Assembly (NCBI RefSeq): GCF_001425055.1
Contig: NZ_LMDK01000017.1
Span: 445,502-509,501 of the forward strand
Source: Pelomonas sp. Root1237
GTDB taxonomy: Bacteria > Pseudomonadota > Gammaproteobacteria > Burkholderiales > Burkholderiaceae_C
Length of the DNA stretch: 64,000 nucleotides
Direction of reading: 5' to 3'
Shown here: piece after piece, positions 4,356 through 9,192 of the stretch
How positions within the stretch are numbered: the stretch's first letter is position 1
Layout: every line of letters starts with the position of its first letter
Position numbers and translations under genes: made by a program
The notes under the pieces: generated by a model
Seen by the model: the letters and a program-made list of their open reading frames with translations, nothing else
The model's database searches: none
What the model was told of the DNA's origin: nothing

Positions 4356-6260
4356 ATGTCTGATCCTCATTCGCATCCGAATCAATTTGCGCTGCTGGGC
4401 CAGCGCCGCTTCGCGCCCTTCTTCTGGACGCAGTTCCTCGGCGCCGCGAACGACAACGTCTTCAAGTTCGCGTTCACGCTGATGATCACCTACCAGCTGC
4501 AGCTGGACTGGCTGCCGTCCAAGATGGCGGGCCTGGTCATCGGGGCGCTGTTCATCCTGCCCTATGTGCTGTTCTCGGCCACCAGCGGCCAGCTGGCCGA
4601 CAAGCACGACAAGGCCAGGCTGATGCAGCTCGTCAAGAGCCTGGAGATCGCCATCATGGTGATCGCGGCCTGGGGCTTCTACGCCGCCAATGTGCCGGCG
4701 CTGCTGGGCTGCGTCTTCCTGATGGGCCTGCACTCGACGCTGTTCGGCCCGGTCAAGTACGCCTACATGCCGCAGCAGCTCAGCGAGCGCGAGCTGACCG
4801 GCGGCAATGGCATGGTGGAGATGGGCACCTTCGTCGCCATCCTGCTGGGGCAGCTGCTTGGCGGCATCCTGGTCGACACGCCGATCGTTGGCCCGCAGCA
4901 TGTGGCCTGGGCCTGCCTGGCGCTGGCCGTGGCCGGCCGCGTGACCGCGCAGGCCATTCCCACCAGCCCGTCAACCGACCCGAATCTGGTCATCAACTGG
5001 AACCCCTTCACCGAGACCTGGCGCAACCTCAAGCTCGCGCATGAAGGCCTGGCGGTGTTTCGCTCGCTGCTGGGCATTTCGTGGATGTGGTTCTTCGGCG
5101 CCGTGTTCCTGAGCAACTTTCCGGCCTTCGCCAAGGAGGTGCTGCACGGCAGCCCGCAGGTGGCATCTCTGTTGCTGGCGGTGTTCTCCATCGGCATCGG
5201 TATCGGCTCGCTGATGTGCGAGATGCTGTCCAAGCGCCATGTCGAGATCGGCCTCGTACCACTGGGCGCCATCGGCATGAGCGTGTTCGCCATTGACCTC
5301 TATTTCGCCGCCTCGGGCCTGCCCGCGGCGGCGCCCTACAGCGTCAGCACCTTCCTGGCCGTGACCGCGCACTGGCGCGTGCTGGCCGACCTGACGCTGC
5401 TGGCCCTGTTCGCCGGCCTCTACAGCGTGCCCATGTATGCGCTGATCCAGCTGCGCGCCCAGCCCAGCCACCGCGCCCGCATCATTGCGGCCAACAACAT
5501 CCTGAACGCGGTCTTCATGATCGCCAGCTCCGTCATCGCCGGCGCCATGCTGGGCGCGGGGCTGACCATCCCGCAGATCTTCCTGGCCGTCGGCATCGCC
5601 AACGCGATCGTCGCGTTCTACATCTTCCTCATCGTGCCGGAGTACCTGCTGCGCTTCGCTGCCTTCGTGCTGACGCGCATCGTCTATCGCTTCCGCGTCG
5701 TCAACGACGAGCGCATTCCCACCACCGGCCCGGCCGTGCTGGTGTGCAACCACGTCAGCTTCGTCGACGCCGTGCTGCTGATGGCCGCCAGCCCTCGGCC
5801 CATCCGCTTCCTGATGGACGCGCAGATCTTCCGCATCCCCGTGCTCGGCTGGATGTTCAAGCTCGCCAAGGCCATTCCGATCGCGCCGCAGAAGACCGAC
5901 CCGGCCACCTATGAAGCCGCCTTCGCGGCCGCCCGGGCCGTGCTGGCCGATGGCGAGATGGTCTGCATCTTCCCCGAGGGCGGCATCACGCGCGACGGCG
6001 AGCTGCAGCCTTTCAAGGGCGGCGTCATGAAGCTCATCGAAGGCATGCCCGAGGTGCCCGTCATCCCGATGGCGCTGGGCAATCTGTGGGGCAGCTATTT
6101 CTCGCGCGTCGAGGGCGGCAAGGCGATGGTCAAGCCGATGCGGCGCGGGGTGTGGAGCCCGGTCAGCCTGACAGTGGACCGGCCGATGCCGATGGCCACC
6201 GTGTCGCCTGATGGCCTGCGCACGCGGGTGCAGACCTTGCTCGCAGGAGCTGCATCATGA
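4356..6260 (+). CDS. MFS transporter (LplT-like) fused to 1-acyl-glycerol-3-phosphate acyltransferase (PlsC-like)
   Basis: This is a 634-residue two-domain inner membrane protein. Residues about 15-420 form a 12-helix major-facilitator domain resembling the lysophospholipid flippase LplT (opening FAPFFWTQFLGAANDNVFKF). Residues about 440-625 are a cytoplasmic PlsC-type acyltransferase with the HX4D catalytic motif (NHVSFVD, His466/Asp471) and FPEGG (about 539-543) for glycerophosphate binding. In E. coli, LplT is a separate protein that works with Aas, an acyltransferase/acyl-ACP synthetase; here the synthetase domain is absent. The likely role is to flip lysophospholipid inward and re-acylate it. 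It heads a four-gene operon whose next start (ATGA, 6257) overlaps its stop. Confidence 0.88.
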   Translation: MSDPHSHPNQFALLGQRRFAPFFWTQFLGAANDNVFKFAFTLMITYQLQLDWLPSKMAGLVIGALFILPYVLFSATSGQLADKHDKARLMQLVKSLEIAIMVIAAWGFYAANVPALLGCVFLMGLHSTLFGPVKYAYMPQQLSERELTGGNGMVEMGTFVAILLGQLLGGILVDTPIVGPQHVAWACLALAVAGRVTAQAIPTSPSTDPNLVINWNPFTETWRNLKLAHEGLAVFRSLLGISWMWFFGAVFLSNFPAFAKEVLHGSPQVASLLLAVFSIGIGIGSLMCEMLSKRHVEIGLVPLGAIGMSVFAIDLYFAASGLPAAAPYSVSTFLAVTAHWRVLADLTLLALFAGLYSVPMYALIQLRAQPSHRARIIAANNILNAVFMIASSVIAGAMLGAGLTIPQIFLAVGIANAIVAFYIFLIVPEYLLRFAAFVLTRIVYRFRVVNDERIPTTGPAVLVCNHVSFVDAVLLMAASPRPIRFLMDAQIFRIPVLGWMFKLAKAIPIAPQKTDPATYEAAFAAARAVLADGEMVCIFPEGGITRDGELQPFKGGVMKLIEGMPEVPVIPMALGNLWGSYFSRVEGGKAMVKPMRRGVWSPVSLTVDRPMPMATVSPDGLRTRVQTLLAGAAS

Positions 6261-6511
6261 GCGACGCCCAGACCTCCTTCGGCCGCTTCGTCCTCGTCTG
6301 CATCCTGGTCGTCGCGACGCTGGGCTTCGGCCTCGCCGGCCTGTGCGGCGGCGTGTTCACCGTGGGCGCTTTGCCCGATCTGTTCTCGAAAGGCCCGGAG
6401 AACTACTCCACCGCCATGCTGGTCATCTCCGTGCCCAGCCTGCTGATCGGCGGTGGCCTGGCCTGGCTGTGCGGACGCAAGCTGGCCCGGATGTTCAGCA
6501 GCAGAGATTGA
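6257..6511 (+). CDS. Small two-helix membrane protein in lipid operon
   Basis: This 84-residue protein has two clear hydrophobic helices (about residues 10-36 and 50-72) joined by a short polar loop (LPDLFSKGPENYST), with a basic C-terminal end. I do not recognise a family. It starts in an ATGA overlap with the acyltransferase gene and ends in a TTGA overlap with the Lgt-like gene. It is therefore translationally coupled on both sides, which suggests a subunit or accessory factor of the same membrane process. Confidence 0.7.
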   Translation: MSDAQTSFGRFVLVCILVVATLGFGLAGLCGGVFTVGALPDLFSKGPENYSTAMLVISVPSLLIGGGLAWLCGRKLARMFSSRD

Positions 6512-7251
6512 TCGCCGACGCCACCACCGCCGCCTGGGTGCACAGCGCCTTCGCCTATGCCGGCATGGCCCTTGGCGCGGCAATGTGGCGCGGGACGCTG
6601 AAACGTCGGGACCGCGGCGGCGCATTGGCGCCTGGGAATTTCGGTGTCCTCGTCGGCCTGCTGATCGGCGCGGCCCTGGGCAACAAACTCGTCTTCCTCA
6701 TCGAGCGGCCCGATGTGGCAGCAGCTCTCTGGCAGGGCGGCCAACTCATGCTGCCCGGCCAAAGCATCGTCGGCGGCCTGCTGGGCGGGCTTCTTGGCGT
6801 GGAGATCGCCAAGAAGCTGACCGGCCAAACCCGCAGCACCGGCGACGCCATGGTGCTTCCCATCGCCGTCGGCCTCGCCATTGGTCGCATCGGCTGCTTC
6901 CTCGCCGGCCTGCATGACGACACCTACGGGCTGCCGACGGCGTTGCTCTGGGGCGTGGACTTCGGCGACGGCATCCCGCGGCACCCAACCCAGCTCTACG
7001 AGATCGCCGTCGTGCTGGTCCTCGGCATCACGCTGAGCCGCGCGCGCTTCACCACACCCGGCCTGGCCTTCAAGCTCTTCCTGAGCGCCTACCTGCTGTG
7101 GCGCTTCGCAGTCGAATTCCTCAAGCCCGTGCCGGTCCCTTATCCGCTCGGCCTGTCCGGCATCCAATGGACCTGCCTCATCGCGCTCGCCGTCTACACC
7201 CCCATCGTGCTGCGCGCCTGGCGCCGGCCGCCCTTGCTCGCCACGCCATGA
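6508..7251 (+). CDS. Prolipoprotein diacylglyceryl transferase (Lgt)-like membrane protein
   Basis: This 247-residue polytopic membrane protein has recognisable Lgt sequence blocks: SIVGGLLGGLLG (aligning with the FHGGLIG block), GRIGCFLAG (126-134, the GRIGNF signature), RHPTQLYE (158-165) and WRFAVEFLK (R199, aligning with the essential Arg239 of E. coli Lgt). The His of HGG (His103 in E. coli) is replaced by Val88 and the Asn of GRIGNF by Cys130, so it is probably not the housekeeping Lgt. The start is a TTG overlapping the previous stop (TTGA). It ends in an ATGA overlap with a radical SAM gene. It may use a phospholipid, such as phosphatidylglycerol, in a different transfer reaction; this is inference. 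Confidence 0.75.
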   Translation: MIADATTAAWVHSAFAYAGMALGAAMWRGTLKRRDRGGALAPGNFGVLVGLLIGAALGNKLVFLIERPDVAAALWQGGQLMLPGQSIVGGLLGGLLGVEIAKKLTGQTRSTGDAMVLPIAVGLAIGRIGCFLAGLHDDTYGLPTALLWGVDFGDGIPRHPTQLYEIAVVLVLGITLSRARFTTPGLAFKLFLSAYLLWRFAVEFLKPVPVPYPLGLSGIQWTCLIALAVYTPIVLRAWRRPPLLATP

Positions 7252-8717
7252 CCCGCAAAGTCCGTCCCTACCTGTTCTACGACACGACGCAGTCCGTCTG
7301 CACGACCTGCCTGCGCCCTGTCGAAGCCAAGATCCTCATCAAGGACGATCACGTCTACATGGACAAATGGTGCCCCGCCCACGGCACCGAGCGCGTGCTG
7401 GTCAGCGACGACGCGGCCTACTACCGGCAGTGCCGCGAGGTGTTCGTCAAGCCACCGGAGATGCCGCAGAGATTCGCGACGCCGATGAAGTACGGCTGCC
7501 CCTATGACTGCGGCCTGTGCCCCGACCACATGCAGCACAGCTGCCTGTCCCTCATCGAGATCAGCGACCACTGCAATCTGCGCTGCCCGACCTGCTATGC
7601 GGGCTCAGGCCCCGAGCGGCTCAGCCACCGCACGATGGAGGAAGTCATCGCGATGCTGGATGCCGTTGTTGCCAGCGAGGGCGAGGCCGATGTCGTGCAG
7701 ATCTCCGGCGGCGAGCCGACGCTGCACCCGCAGTTCTTCGACATCCTGGATGCTGCCAAGGCCCGGCCCATCAAGCACCTGATGGTCAACACCAACGGTC
7801 TGCGCATCGCCCAGGACGAAGCCTTTGCCGAGCGGCTGGCAGGCTATGCACCGGGGCTGGAGGTGTACCTGCAGTTCGACTCGCTGCGGCGCGAGGCGCT
7901 GATGGACCTGCGTGGCGCCGACCTGCGCGGGCCGCATGACGCTGCGCTGGCCAGGCTGGACGCGCTGGGCATCTCGACAACGCTGGTCATGACGGTCAAG
8001 CGCGGCGTCAACGACGACGAGATCGGCGACGTCATCCGCCACGGCCAGAGCTACGCCTGCGTGCGCGGCGTGACGCTGCAGCCCATCCAGAACGCCGGCC
8101 GCGTCGAGGCCTACGACGCCGCGAAGCACCGCCTCACCGTCAGCGAGCTGCGCCGCCGCATCGCCGAGCAGAGCGGTGTGTTCACGCTGGCCGACGTGCT
8201 GCCGGTGCCCTGCAACCCCGACACGCTGGCGATGGCCTACGCGCTGCGCAGCCAGGACAAAGAGAAGGGCCTGGTGCCCCTGACCCGCTTCCTCGACGCC
8301 GCCACGCTGCTGTCCGGCGACCGCAGCACCATCGTCTTCGAGGGCGACCCGGCGCTGAAGGCCTCGGTCTTCAAGCTGTTCTCCACCAACCACTCGCCCG
8401 AGAGCCAGTCCAACTGCCTGTCCGAGCTGCTGTGCTGCCTGCCCAAGATCGACGCGCCCCAGCTCAGCTACCGCGACGTCTTCCGCGTGCTGATCGTGCA
8501 GTTCATGGACGCCCAATCGCTGGACATCCGCGCGCTGAAGAAGAGCTGCATTCACATCGCCCGGCCGGACGGCCGCATGGTGCCCTTCGAGGCCTACAAC
8601 CTGTTCTATCGCGACGAGCGCCAGGCCGAGCTGGCTCACATCCGCGCCGAGATCGATGCGCAGCGCGAGCAGCGCCTGCACTTCAAGCCGAAGGCGGTTC
8701 CACTCGTGCGCGCCTGA
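7248..8717 (+). CDS. Radical SAM protein of the MJ0619 / tetraether lipid synthase (Tes)-like family
   Basis: This 489-residue cytoplasmic or membrane-peripheral enzyme contains an N-terminal rubredoxin-like set (C18xxC21 and C42), an auxiliary C84-x3-C88-x2-C91 plus C99, and the canonical radical SAM C109-x3-C113-x2-C116 motif (CNLRCPTC). After the TIM-barrel SISGGEPTLHP-type block, the C-terminus carries further cysteines (about residues 385-400) and a family-type ending (PDGRMVPFEAYNLFYR). This multi-cluster layout is that of the MJ0619 family, whose archaeal member Tes joins lipid tails by radical C-C coupling. The gene overlaps the Lgt-like gene by 4 nt. Joining, methylating or desaturating lipid chains is the natural hypothesis. 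ATG 7248 was preferred to upstream in-frame codons for that overlap. Confidence 0.85.
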   Translation: MTRKVRPYLFYDTTQSVCTTCLRPVEAKILIKDDHVYMDKWCPAHGTERVLVSDDAAYYRQCREVFVKPPEMPQRFATPMKYGCPYDCGLCPDHMQHSCLSLIEISDHCNLRCPTCYAGSGPERLSHRTMEEVIAMLDAVVASEGEADVVQISGGEPTLHPQFFDILDAAKARPIKHLMVNTNGLRIAQDEAFAERLAGYAPGLEVYLQFDSLRREALMDLRGADLRGPHDAALARLDALGISTTLVMTVKRGVNDDEIGDVIRHGQSYACVRGVTLQPIQNAGRVEAYDAAKHRLTVSELRRRIAEQSGVFTLADVLPVPCNPDTLAMAYALRSQDKEKGLVPLTRFLDAATLLSGDRSTIVFEGDPALKASVFKLFSTNHSPESQSNCLSELLCCLPKIDAPQLSYRDVFRVLIVQFMDAQSLDIRALKKSCIHIARPDGRMVPFEAYNLFYRDERQAELAHIRAEIDAQREQRLHFKPKAVPLVRA

Positions 8718-9192
8718 ACAACCGCTTCACCCTCAGCTTGATCGCCCGCGCGGTACGCCAGGCCGAGCTGGCCCGCACCCAGGCCAGCAGCTCGGTCTTC
8801 CAGGCCGTCCAGCGAGCATAGAAGCGGGCGAACCAGGGCAGCTGCATCAGCGCCGGCTGGATGAGCTGGAACAACCATGCCAGCAACGCCGTGCCCAGCA
8901 GTTTGGCCGCAACGACGATGCCCACGCCCAGCATGACGTGGCCCTCGGCCACCAGCCAGACGGCAGCCAGCTTGATCGGCAGGATCAGCAGGCTGGGCAG
9001 CACCAGCACGACGAAAGCCCAGCGCGGCGGCAGGCGCTGGAGCAGGGCCTCGAACTGGCGGATGAGCGGCAGCTTGGCCAGCAGCGCGAAGACGCGCCGC
9101 AACGGCTCCCAACCCCATTCCTCGAACAGGATGAGCAGGGCCAGGACGACGCGGATGAGCCAGCGCAGCGGAGCGAGCATCGACTTCAACAT
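8683..9192 (-). CDS. Conserved membrane protein, unknown function
   Basis: This 169-residue protein has hydrophobic stretches at about residues 10-25, 58-85 and 88-115 and a strongly basic, arginine-rich C-terminus (about 145-165). That pattern fits a small inner membrane protein with a cytoplasmic tail. It converges on the radical SAM gene, overlapping its 3' end by 35 nt. I know similar sequences only as hypothetical proteins of Burkholderiales. Confidence 0.65.
   Translation of the reverse strand: MLKSMLAPLRWLIRVVLALLILFEEWGWEPLRRVFALLAKLPLIRQFEALLQRLPPRWAFVVLVLPSLLILPIKLAAVWLVAEGHVMLGVGIVVAAKLLGTALLAWLFQLIQPALMQLPWFARFYARWTAWKTELLAWVRASSAWRTARAIKLRVKRLFRRARVEPPSA

Follow-up and report, generated by a model that had tools for sequence, protein, structure and literature searches.

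In the canonical maturation of lipoproteins by prolipoprotein diacylglyceryl transferase (Lgt; structure 5AZB), the thiol of a cysteine at the outer face of the membrane attacks phosphatidylglycerol. The archaeal tetraether lipid synthase Tes, or GDGT-MAS (MJ0619; structures 7TOL and 7TOM), is a radical S-adenosylmethionine (SAM) enzyme that, according to passages of PMC9433317, binds two lipids and has as its ligands C9-x2-C12-x20-C33-x2-H36, then C73, C77 and C80 with a His, and a CX3CX2C motif, the C-terminal cluster being the site of a C-S intermediate. Homologues of Tes occur in bacteria that are not known to produce biphytanyl chains (PMC9433317) and were counted in 281 bacterial genome bins in an environmental survey (PMC11868695); their function was left open in 2022 in the relevant passages of two papers (PMC8941075, PMC9433317). 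Here we describe a locus of Pelomonas sp. Root1237, at positions 4,356-8,717 of a 64,000-nt stretch (the window), in which genes for a small membrane protein, an Lgt-like membrane protein and a Tes-fold radical SAM enzyme follow one another, and compare it with related loci from other genomes.

These three genes (6257-8717) constitute a cassette. The pairing of the radical SAM and Lgt-like genes is widespread and, in the loci compared, clade-specific, and the small membrane proteins encoded beside the pair often have a cysteine at the predicted position of a lipobox cysteine, an observation that is new in this analysis.

Extent of the cassette and pairing of its genes

The locus consists of four open reading frames (ORFs) on the forward strand and, as claimed in an earlier note on this DNA, each junction is a 4-nt overlap (ATGA, TTGA and ATGA), in the window as well as in locus L022. 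The first ORF encodes a 634-aa fusion of a domain resembling MFS proteins and lysophospholipid transporters with a PlsC-type acyltransferase (4356-6260; Pfam MFS_1 and Acyltransferase), which is related to acyl-ACP-phospholipid O-acyltransferases and scores under their cut-offs. It is followed by the genes for an 84-aa protein with two transmembrane (TM) segments, a candidate substrate (6257-6511), for the 247-aa Lgt-like membrane protein, which has a TTG start (6508-7251), and for the 489-aa radical SAM enzyme with its Radical_SAM and HMPTM zinc ribbon domains (7248-8717). The latter is 95% identical to its counterpart in the close relative Pelomonas sp. Root1444; the host genome measures 6.4 Mb. 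Overlaps of 4 nt are by themselves common in bacteria. It is not the overlaps but the conservation across genomes that exceeds chance.

The earlier note regarded the acyltransferase fusion as part of the system, a view that a comparison of 20 genomes of the host genus does not uphold. The radical SAM gene is present in 14 of the 20, the Lgt-like gene in the same 14, and both are missing from the same six, whereas the fusion is found in all 20, with or without the cassette. Moreover, in two of the cassette-less genomes (L275 and L276) the acyltransferase gene abuts the convergent gene that in the window closes the insertion site on the right (169 aa; 8683-9192, reverse strand; no Pfam family at E 0.01). 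Since the pair shares one distribution, the fusion is ubiquitous in the genus and the flanking genes abut in L275 and L276, the cassette unit is the segment encoding the small protein, the Lgt-like protein and the radical SAM enzyme, and the acyltransferase fusion is a resident upstream neighbour. Three further cassette-less genomes (L271-L273) carry 1.4-3.3 kb of different DNA at the site, and the flanking gene could not be located in the last one (L274). The site between the acyltransferase and convergent genes (6260-8683) looks like a hot spot, because other DNA fills it in three of the six cassette-less genomes. In genome G450 (L260), the small gene and the Lgt-like gene are separated by some 2.2 kb of additional DNA.

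Beyond the genus, we compared 80 named loci. They are the 80 best of the 577 that a two-pattern scan confirmed, so that the frequencies given here hold for relatives close to the query. In 74 of the 80 loci an Lgt-like ORF is encoded no more than 2 kb from the radical SAM gene, on the opposite strand in two cases (L036 and L071) and downstream in three (L086, L091 and L094). Among the six loci without one nearby (L030, L045, L068, L076, L092 and L099), L030 and L068 have their start no more than 330 nt from the end of a contig, and the genome of L092 carries an Lgt-like gene on another contig (G282:C14). Nine further loci of the same radical SAM family gave eight with an Lgt-like gene, L017 being the exception. 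No Lgt-like gene was found near the radical SAM gene at any of 19 loci from other Tes and TrsS clades, the four TrsS loci included, although three of these 19 stretches are cut by a contig end near the gene (L164, L165 and L174) and two are short (L165 and L167, 4.0 and 10.6 kb). Relatives of the acyltransferase fusion occur within the fetched flank of only 10 of the 80 loci, nine of them with betaproteobacterial labels and one (L033) labelled only Proteobacteria, and in nine of the ten the relative ends less than 600 nt from the Lgt-like gene. Thus, of the four-gene set whose conservation the earlier note had proposed to check, the radical SAM/Lgt-like pair is conserved and the fusion is not.

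Labels within the clade, many of them of metagenome bins, include Pseudomonadota, Acidobacteriota, Bacillota, Planctomycetota, Myxococcota, Bacteroidota, Spirochaetota, Elusimicrobiota, Omnitrophota and Verrucomicrobiota, as well as archaeal Thermoplasmatota. In the class to which the window belongs the distribution is patchy, with 9 of 274 genomes matched, the host included, and one of the nine (G239) belonging to other clades. The archaeal occurrences are three bins of marine, MGII-type Thermoplasmatota with the pair (L059, L067 and L089), which form one tree clade (100/100). No further PF01790 gene was found in these bins, the completeness of which is not told, and in L089 the pair adjoins a DUF1246/DUF1297 gene, which we take to be of the PurP type. 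On account of their own tree clade, the missing second PF01790 gene and this neighbour in L089, the archaeal occurrence looks like transfer into archaea rather than contamination of the bins.

A search of the literature for radical SAM proteins in combination with Lgt or diacylglyceryl, which left most subscription papers outside its reach and is hence a weak negative, returned a single relevant passage. It describes, in single-cell genomes of Pseudarthrobacter, a variable region of about 3,500 bp and five genes, including those for a radical SAM domain protein and a prolipoprotein diacylglyceryl transferase, that one of four cells with matching 16S rRNA lacks (PMC12010503). Such variable presence is expected of a cassette, and the region may be the same cassette seen coming and going in Actinobacteriota, a guess from the gene descriptions; the passage gives the pair no function and draws no connection to Tes.

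The radical SAM and Lgt-like proteins

The nearest solved relative of the radical SAM protein is GDGT-MAS/Tes (phmmer, 6.4e-58; family profile, 5e-87 over residues 12-461). When modelled against Tes, as the earlier note had suggested, the protein proved to be a full-length structural relative: an AlphaFold2 model built from 81 family sequences, with a predicted local distance difference test (pLDDT) score of 86.7 that falls below 50 at residues 356-372 and 391-403, aligned with 7tom at VIA Z 41.9 and a root-mean-square deviation (rmsd) of 2.7 over 416 residues (29% identity), the next fold being that of MoaA at Z 19.1. The multi-cluster cysteine layout recognised earlier in the window protein (C18/C21, C84/C88/C91 and C109/C113/C116) is real and extends to the family, in which C18, C21, C42, C84, C88, C91, H94, C109, C113 and C116 are kept in 81 of 81 sequences and H45 in 78. 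The family thus has the ligands of the Tes rubredoxin site (C-x2-C-x20-C-x2-H), of FeS_N (C,C,C,H) and of the radical SAM (RS) cluster (CX3CX2C), all with the spacing found in Tes.

Membership of Tes itself, however, does not follow. The closest NCBIfam model is that of the radical SAM (seleno)protein TrsS (NF045646; 309.9 bits, cut-off 490), followed by Tes (NF045702; 257.9 bits, cut-off 450), and both scores are under their cut-offs. An IQ-TREE phylogeny of 80 rows (39 of the 81 family rows and 41 others; midpoint root for drawing only) places the family in a clade of its own comprising 52 rows (support 100/99), which represent 50 distinct genes because L149 and L112 repeat the genes of L047 and L085. 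TrsS (4 rows, 100/100) and a group of 18 rows holding the Tes match over cut-off (the Tes group; 100/99) stand together across a 100/99 split from this clade. The difference extends to three C-terminal columns, which we take to contain putative ligands of the C-terminal cluster, [Fe4S4]C. Leaving out L124 and L013, which have very long branches, each of these columns is Cys in 16 of 18 Tes-group rows and in all four TrsS and all four intermediate rows; in the family of the window the counts are 18/52 (T326), 0/52 (S433) and 0/52 (E448). The passages on the Tes C-terminal cluster name only Met439 (PMC9433317); the window protein has V in this column, and three of eight aligned rows have M. Tyr459 of Tes, conserved in 1000 archaeal homologues (PMC9433317), is by our reading of the alignment replaced by I, F or L in the eight aligned rows of the family. 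The clade has cysteines of its own, C396 and C397, in 51 of 52 rows. Moreover, three acidobacterial genomes (G274, G279 and G280) each carry a gene of this family together with another, Tes-group gene, that of G280 scoring 573 bits, over the Tes cut-off; the two are therefore different genes. The scores, the separate clade and the missing C-terminal cysteines rule out that the radical SAM protein is Tes or TrsS, and the earlier assignment to the Tes family stands for the fold but not for the clade.

With TrsS the window protein shares C99, C322 and C434 (4/4 rows each). C99 and C434 are also common to the intermediate rows and are not a feature of the Tes group, in 8 of 18 rows of which C322 is Cys. 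TrsS differs in keeping all three Tes C-terminal columns. Two TrsS genes with an in-frame UGA (L129 and L130) come from two genomes of the phylum of an acidobacterium, and by eye this UGA aligns with C322. An in-frame TGA in the match from G136 was considered as a selenocysteine codon and rejected, as the ORF merely ends there, 3 codons short of the end of the alignment. Another bacterial counterpart of Tes, the membrane-spanning lipid synthase Mss, is held to couple acyl chains in the passage concerned (PMC13274423). Mss is probably a different family from the one described here, because Thermotoga maritima, whose genus has membrane-spanning lipids, gave no match to the Tes model at E 1e-25, a separation drawn from this one genome. 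Finally, in G239 the genes for two Tes-family proteins of other clades (L012 and L013), separated by 0.7 kb, flank an SDR-like gene (L021, 6634-10689); genes that read as desaturase/hydroxylase-like and aminotransferase-like are nearby, and no Lgt-like gene is.

The Lgt-like protein has the domain and the fold of Lgt (PF01790, 93.6 bits against a cut-off of 24.9; AlphaFold2 model with pLDDT 95.1, VIA Z 14.2 and rmsd 4.3 over 229 residues of E. coli Lgt, 5azb). It is a paralogue, the canonical Lgt of the host being encoded on another contig (PF01790, 249.5 bits). Twelve of 13 other bacterial genomes checked have a match to the Lgt-like protein, and each of the twelve has another PF01790 gene besides; the thirteenth, G178, has canonical Lgt only. 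The two best NCBIfam lgt equivalog models give 48.2 of the 334 and 34.6 of the 118.9 bits set as their cut-offs, and in a FastTree phylogeny 75 Lgt-like rows part from the 19 rows of other Lgt proteins, which come from the same genomes and hold one ORF twice (L182 and L196), with support of 0.714 on the Lgt-like side.

In our own alignment mapping to E. coli Lgt, none of the 75 Lgt-like rows has lost the equivalents of R143, R239 and Y235, which lie around the phosphatidylglycerol head group or are needed for activity according to passages of PMC4728403 and PMC8689077. The E202 equivalent is E in 68 of the 75, and that of R246 is K or R in all. In contrast to canonical Lgt, E99 and K102 are invariant in the Lgt-like rows and variable in the 19 others, and His103, the residue proposed to be catalytic (PMC8689077), is replaced. 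Because R143, R239 and Y235 are kept and His103 is not, the phospholipid site looks intact and the supposed catalytic base altered. The presence of Cys130 in place of Asn146 was considered as a sign of lost Lgt activity and dismissed, since 10 of the 19 other Lgt rows also have Cys there.

Small membrane proteins beside the pair

The small protein of the window has no Pfam or NCBIfam family above cut-off, nor has any of the neighbouring small proteins tried (six in Pfam, seven in NCBIfam); that of L096 starts with a B-box zinc finger (25.3 bits, cut-off 24.1). A search of the host genome for paralogues gave only one weak match (E 0.78). Compared with L022, the small gene is the fastest-evolving of the four, with a nonsynonymous divergence (dN) of 0.227 against 0.100 for the Lgt-like gene, 0.071 for the acyltransferase and 0.030 for the radical SAM gene, and since its synonymous divergence (dS) is 0.515, the ORF is protein-coding. 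Within the genus it is present in all 13 cassettes with a complete interval, and Cys30 and R10 of the arrangement R10-x19-C30-G are kept in 13 of 13. Tandem second copies occur in 5 of the 13 genomes, the cysteine being retained in all 18 copies.

Small membrane proteins are also found beside the pair in other taxa. Small TM ORFs chained to the pair number 68 in 52 loci; a TM cysteine is present in 63 of the 68 and the strict motif in 41, compared with 7 and 0, respectively, of 27 control ORFs (small TM ORFs from the same loci that neighbour other genes, 2.5 kb or more away). Fisher tests give p of 1.7e-10 for the TM cysteine and 5.5e-9 for the motif, values that are uncorrected for shared ancestry, the motif having been drawn from the same loci. 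A uniform rule, which looks in an adjacent small TM ORF for a Cys that follows K/R at roughly the length of a transmembrane segment and was fixed afterwards, identified such proteins in 52 of the 80 discovery loci, 59 of which have any adjacent small TM ORF. It also did so in 9 of 14 held-out loci of the family, that is, in all nine with such an ORF, a test that is only semi-independent because these loci had been viewed loosely before the rule was fixed. At 18 other-clade loci the rule identified none, one of the 18 having an adjacent small TM ORF.

Two layouts can be distinguished. In the first (28 rows) the cysteine lies at the end of the first helix, with G at position -2 in 18, L at -1 in 16 and G at +1 in 18; K or R precedes it by 15, 16 or 19 residues in 24 of the 28, the cysteine being picked by score and the topology being predicted. 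In the second (41 rows) it is near the C-terminus, commonly in NAACFG, although a few first-helix proteins with long starts are included here. Six rows of the first type and one of the second were added to this table by hand. By the positive-inside rule, the cysteine of the first layout would lie where the helix reaches the outer side, which is the place of a lipobox cysteine. We consider that the small membrane protein, the lipobox-placed cysteine of which went unnoticed in the earlier reading of the locus, is probably the key to the system.

A run of six consecutive small TM ORFs lies upstream of the Lgt-like gene in Psychrobacter pygoscelis (L044, 6429-8073); a TM cysteine is present in five of the six, and a 317-aa protein starting with a TM segment and GFGSC is encoded between the Lgt-like and radical SAM genes of this locus. 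Longer genes with a lipoprotein-like start were also observed near the pair at L034 and L035 (Sel1-type), L029, L039, L015 and L017, the last with DUF547.

Possible roles of the cassette

Our preferred explanation, which we hold tentatively and at somewhat less than an even chance, is that 6257-8717 is a cassette gained and lost as a unit in which the Lgt paralogue lipidates the cysteine of the microprotein and the radical SAM enzyme remodels the lipid. A dedicated lipidation system is suggested because the paralogue keeps the phospholipid site, often adjoins small Cys proteins, and comes and goes with the Tes-fold enzyme. The helix of the small protein, starting with K/R, would run from the inside to the outside of the membrane, and a phospholipid would be the source of the diacylglyceryl, or other lipid, group that the Lgt paralogue would attach to the cysteine. 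As judged from its fold, the radical SAM enzyme could activate C-H bonds of the hydrophobic chains, couple the chains or insert sulfur into them, either before or after the transfer, and the end result would be a microprotein whose lipid anchor has been altered chemically.

Several observations weigh against this explanation. The column of His103, within the HGGL motif, reads V in 63, L in 8, I in 3 and M in 1 of the 75 Lgt-like rows, although only 7 of the 19 other Lgt rows have His there, and the column that we read as that of Tyr26, a residue whose change inactivates E. coli Lgt (PMC4728403), is His in 68 of the 75. The standard lipobox is [LVI][ASTVI][GAS]C. The small proteins do not conform to it, position -1 being Leu in 16 of 28 and the window protein reading LAGLC. 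Furthermore, the cysteine of each protein was chosen by a score that favours a preceding hydrophobic stretch and a following small residue, so the motif table is partly selected, and 6 of 75 small proteins had no qualifying cysteine. Grouped by organism label, a TM cysteine is found in 33 of 35 chained and 6 of 11 control groups; the enrichment is therefore weaker than the raw counts suggest. Since 17 of the 18 other-clade loci lack any adjacent small TM ORF, the contrast with them tests the presence of the ORF more than that of the cysteine. Lastly, the uniform rule finds no small TM-Cys ORF in 28 of the 80 discovery and 5 of the 14 held-out loci, some loci carrying a longer lipoprotein-like gene in place of the small one and others no such gene.

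The alternative that survives best, which we nevertheless regard as unlikely, is the remodelling of free phospholipids: the radical SAM enzyme would couple or otherwise modify acyl tails, yielding membrane-spanning, macrocyclic or branched lipids, with the Lgt-like protein delivering or holding the phospholipid and the small TM protein serving as an assembly subunit. The cross-linking of phospholipid acyl chains by this enzyme, as put forward in the earlier note, is unproven. The Tes fold and its precedent of a hydrophobic substrate (PMC9433317) speak for such chemistry, as do the retained rubredoxin, FeS_N and RS ligands and the 456 bacterial Tes homologues for which Zeng et al. proposed a role in the synthesis of branched glycerol dialkyl glycerol tetraethers (brGDGTs; PMC8941075, in the part concerned). 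The loss of cysteine at two of the three C-terminal columns, together with the position of the clade apart from Tes, points the other way, yet GrsA/B most likely hold the RS cluster alone, according to passages of PMC11186832, and the loss of an auxiliary cluster thus need not abolish lipid chemistry. What this alternative leaves unexplained are the lipobox-placed cysteine and the tandem copies, and the coexistence of genes of this family with Tes-group genes in G274, G279 and G280 also argues against it.

Less well placed is a modification resembling that of ribosomally synthesised and post-translationally modified peptides, in which the radical SAM enzyme would act on the small TM protein itself, for example by a thioether or a C-C crosslink at the cysteine or in its vicinity, and the Lgt-like protein would lipidate or anchor it. 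We consider this improbable. Small, fast-evolving and sometimes duplicated proteins do adjoin the enzymes, and C99 and C434, common to TrsS and not to the Tes group, and C322, Cys in under half of the Tes-group rows, suggest that the chemistry may differ from that of Tes; the N-terminal domains are, however, Tes-like, the closest solved fold is by far that of a lipid enzyme, and a cysteine inside a membrane helix would be hard to reach for a soluble radical SAM protein. Quite improbable, finally, is that the small proteins are accessory TM subunits or chaperones rather than substrates, with the cysteine engaged in redox or metal chemistry of the radical SAM or Lgt-like partner: loci without a small TM-Cys ORF and the two architectures with the cysteine in different helices would agree with this, but tandem copies and fast evolution would be unusual for a subunit, and the cysteine would lie at the outward helix end while the radical SAM enzyme should be cytosolic.

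If microprotein lipidation by the cassette is correct, radical lipid chemistry joins lipoprotein maturation. A more far-reaching version, about which we are doubtful, is a new class of protein lipidation spread over many phyla and marine Thermoplasmatota, in which a neofunctionalised Lgt would attach lipid to a TM cysteine of small proteins dedicated to it and the radical SAM enzyme would weld, cyclise or sulfurate the chains, ahead of the transfer or following it, so that microproteins embedded in the membrane would bear lipid anchors made by radical chemistry. For one large clade of bacterial Tes homologues, a constant gene partner and microproteins that are candidate substrates make function directly testable. 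They also advise caution in environmental surveys such as that of PMC11868695, as far as its passages on Tes go, in that not every bacterial Tes match signals brGDGT or tetraether synthesis.

Elsewhere in the window, an ORF on the reverse strand (360-1334) contains SGHGG and DSCHSG motifs and presumably encodes a protease of the caspase/metacaspase type.

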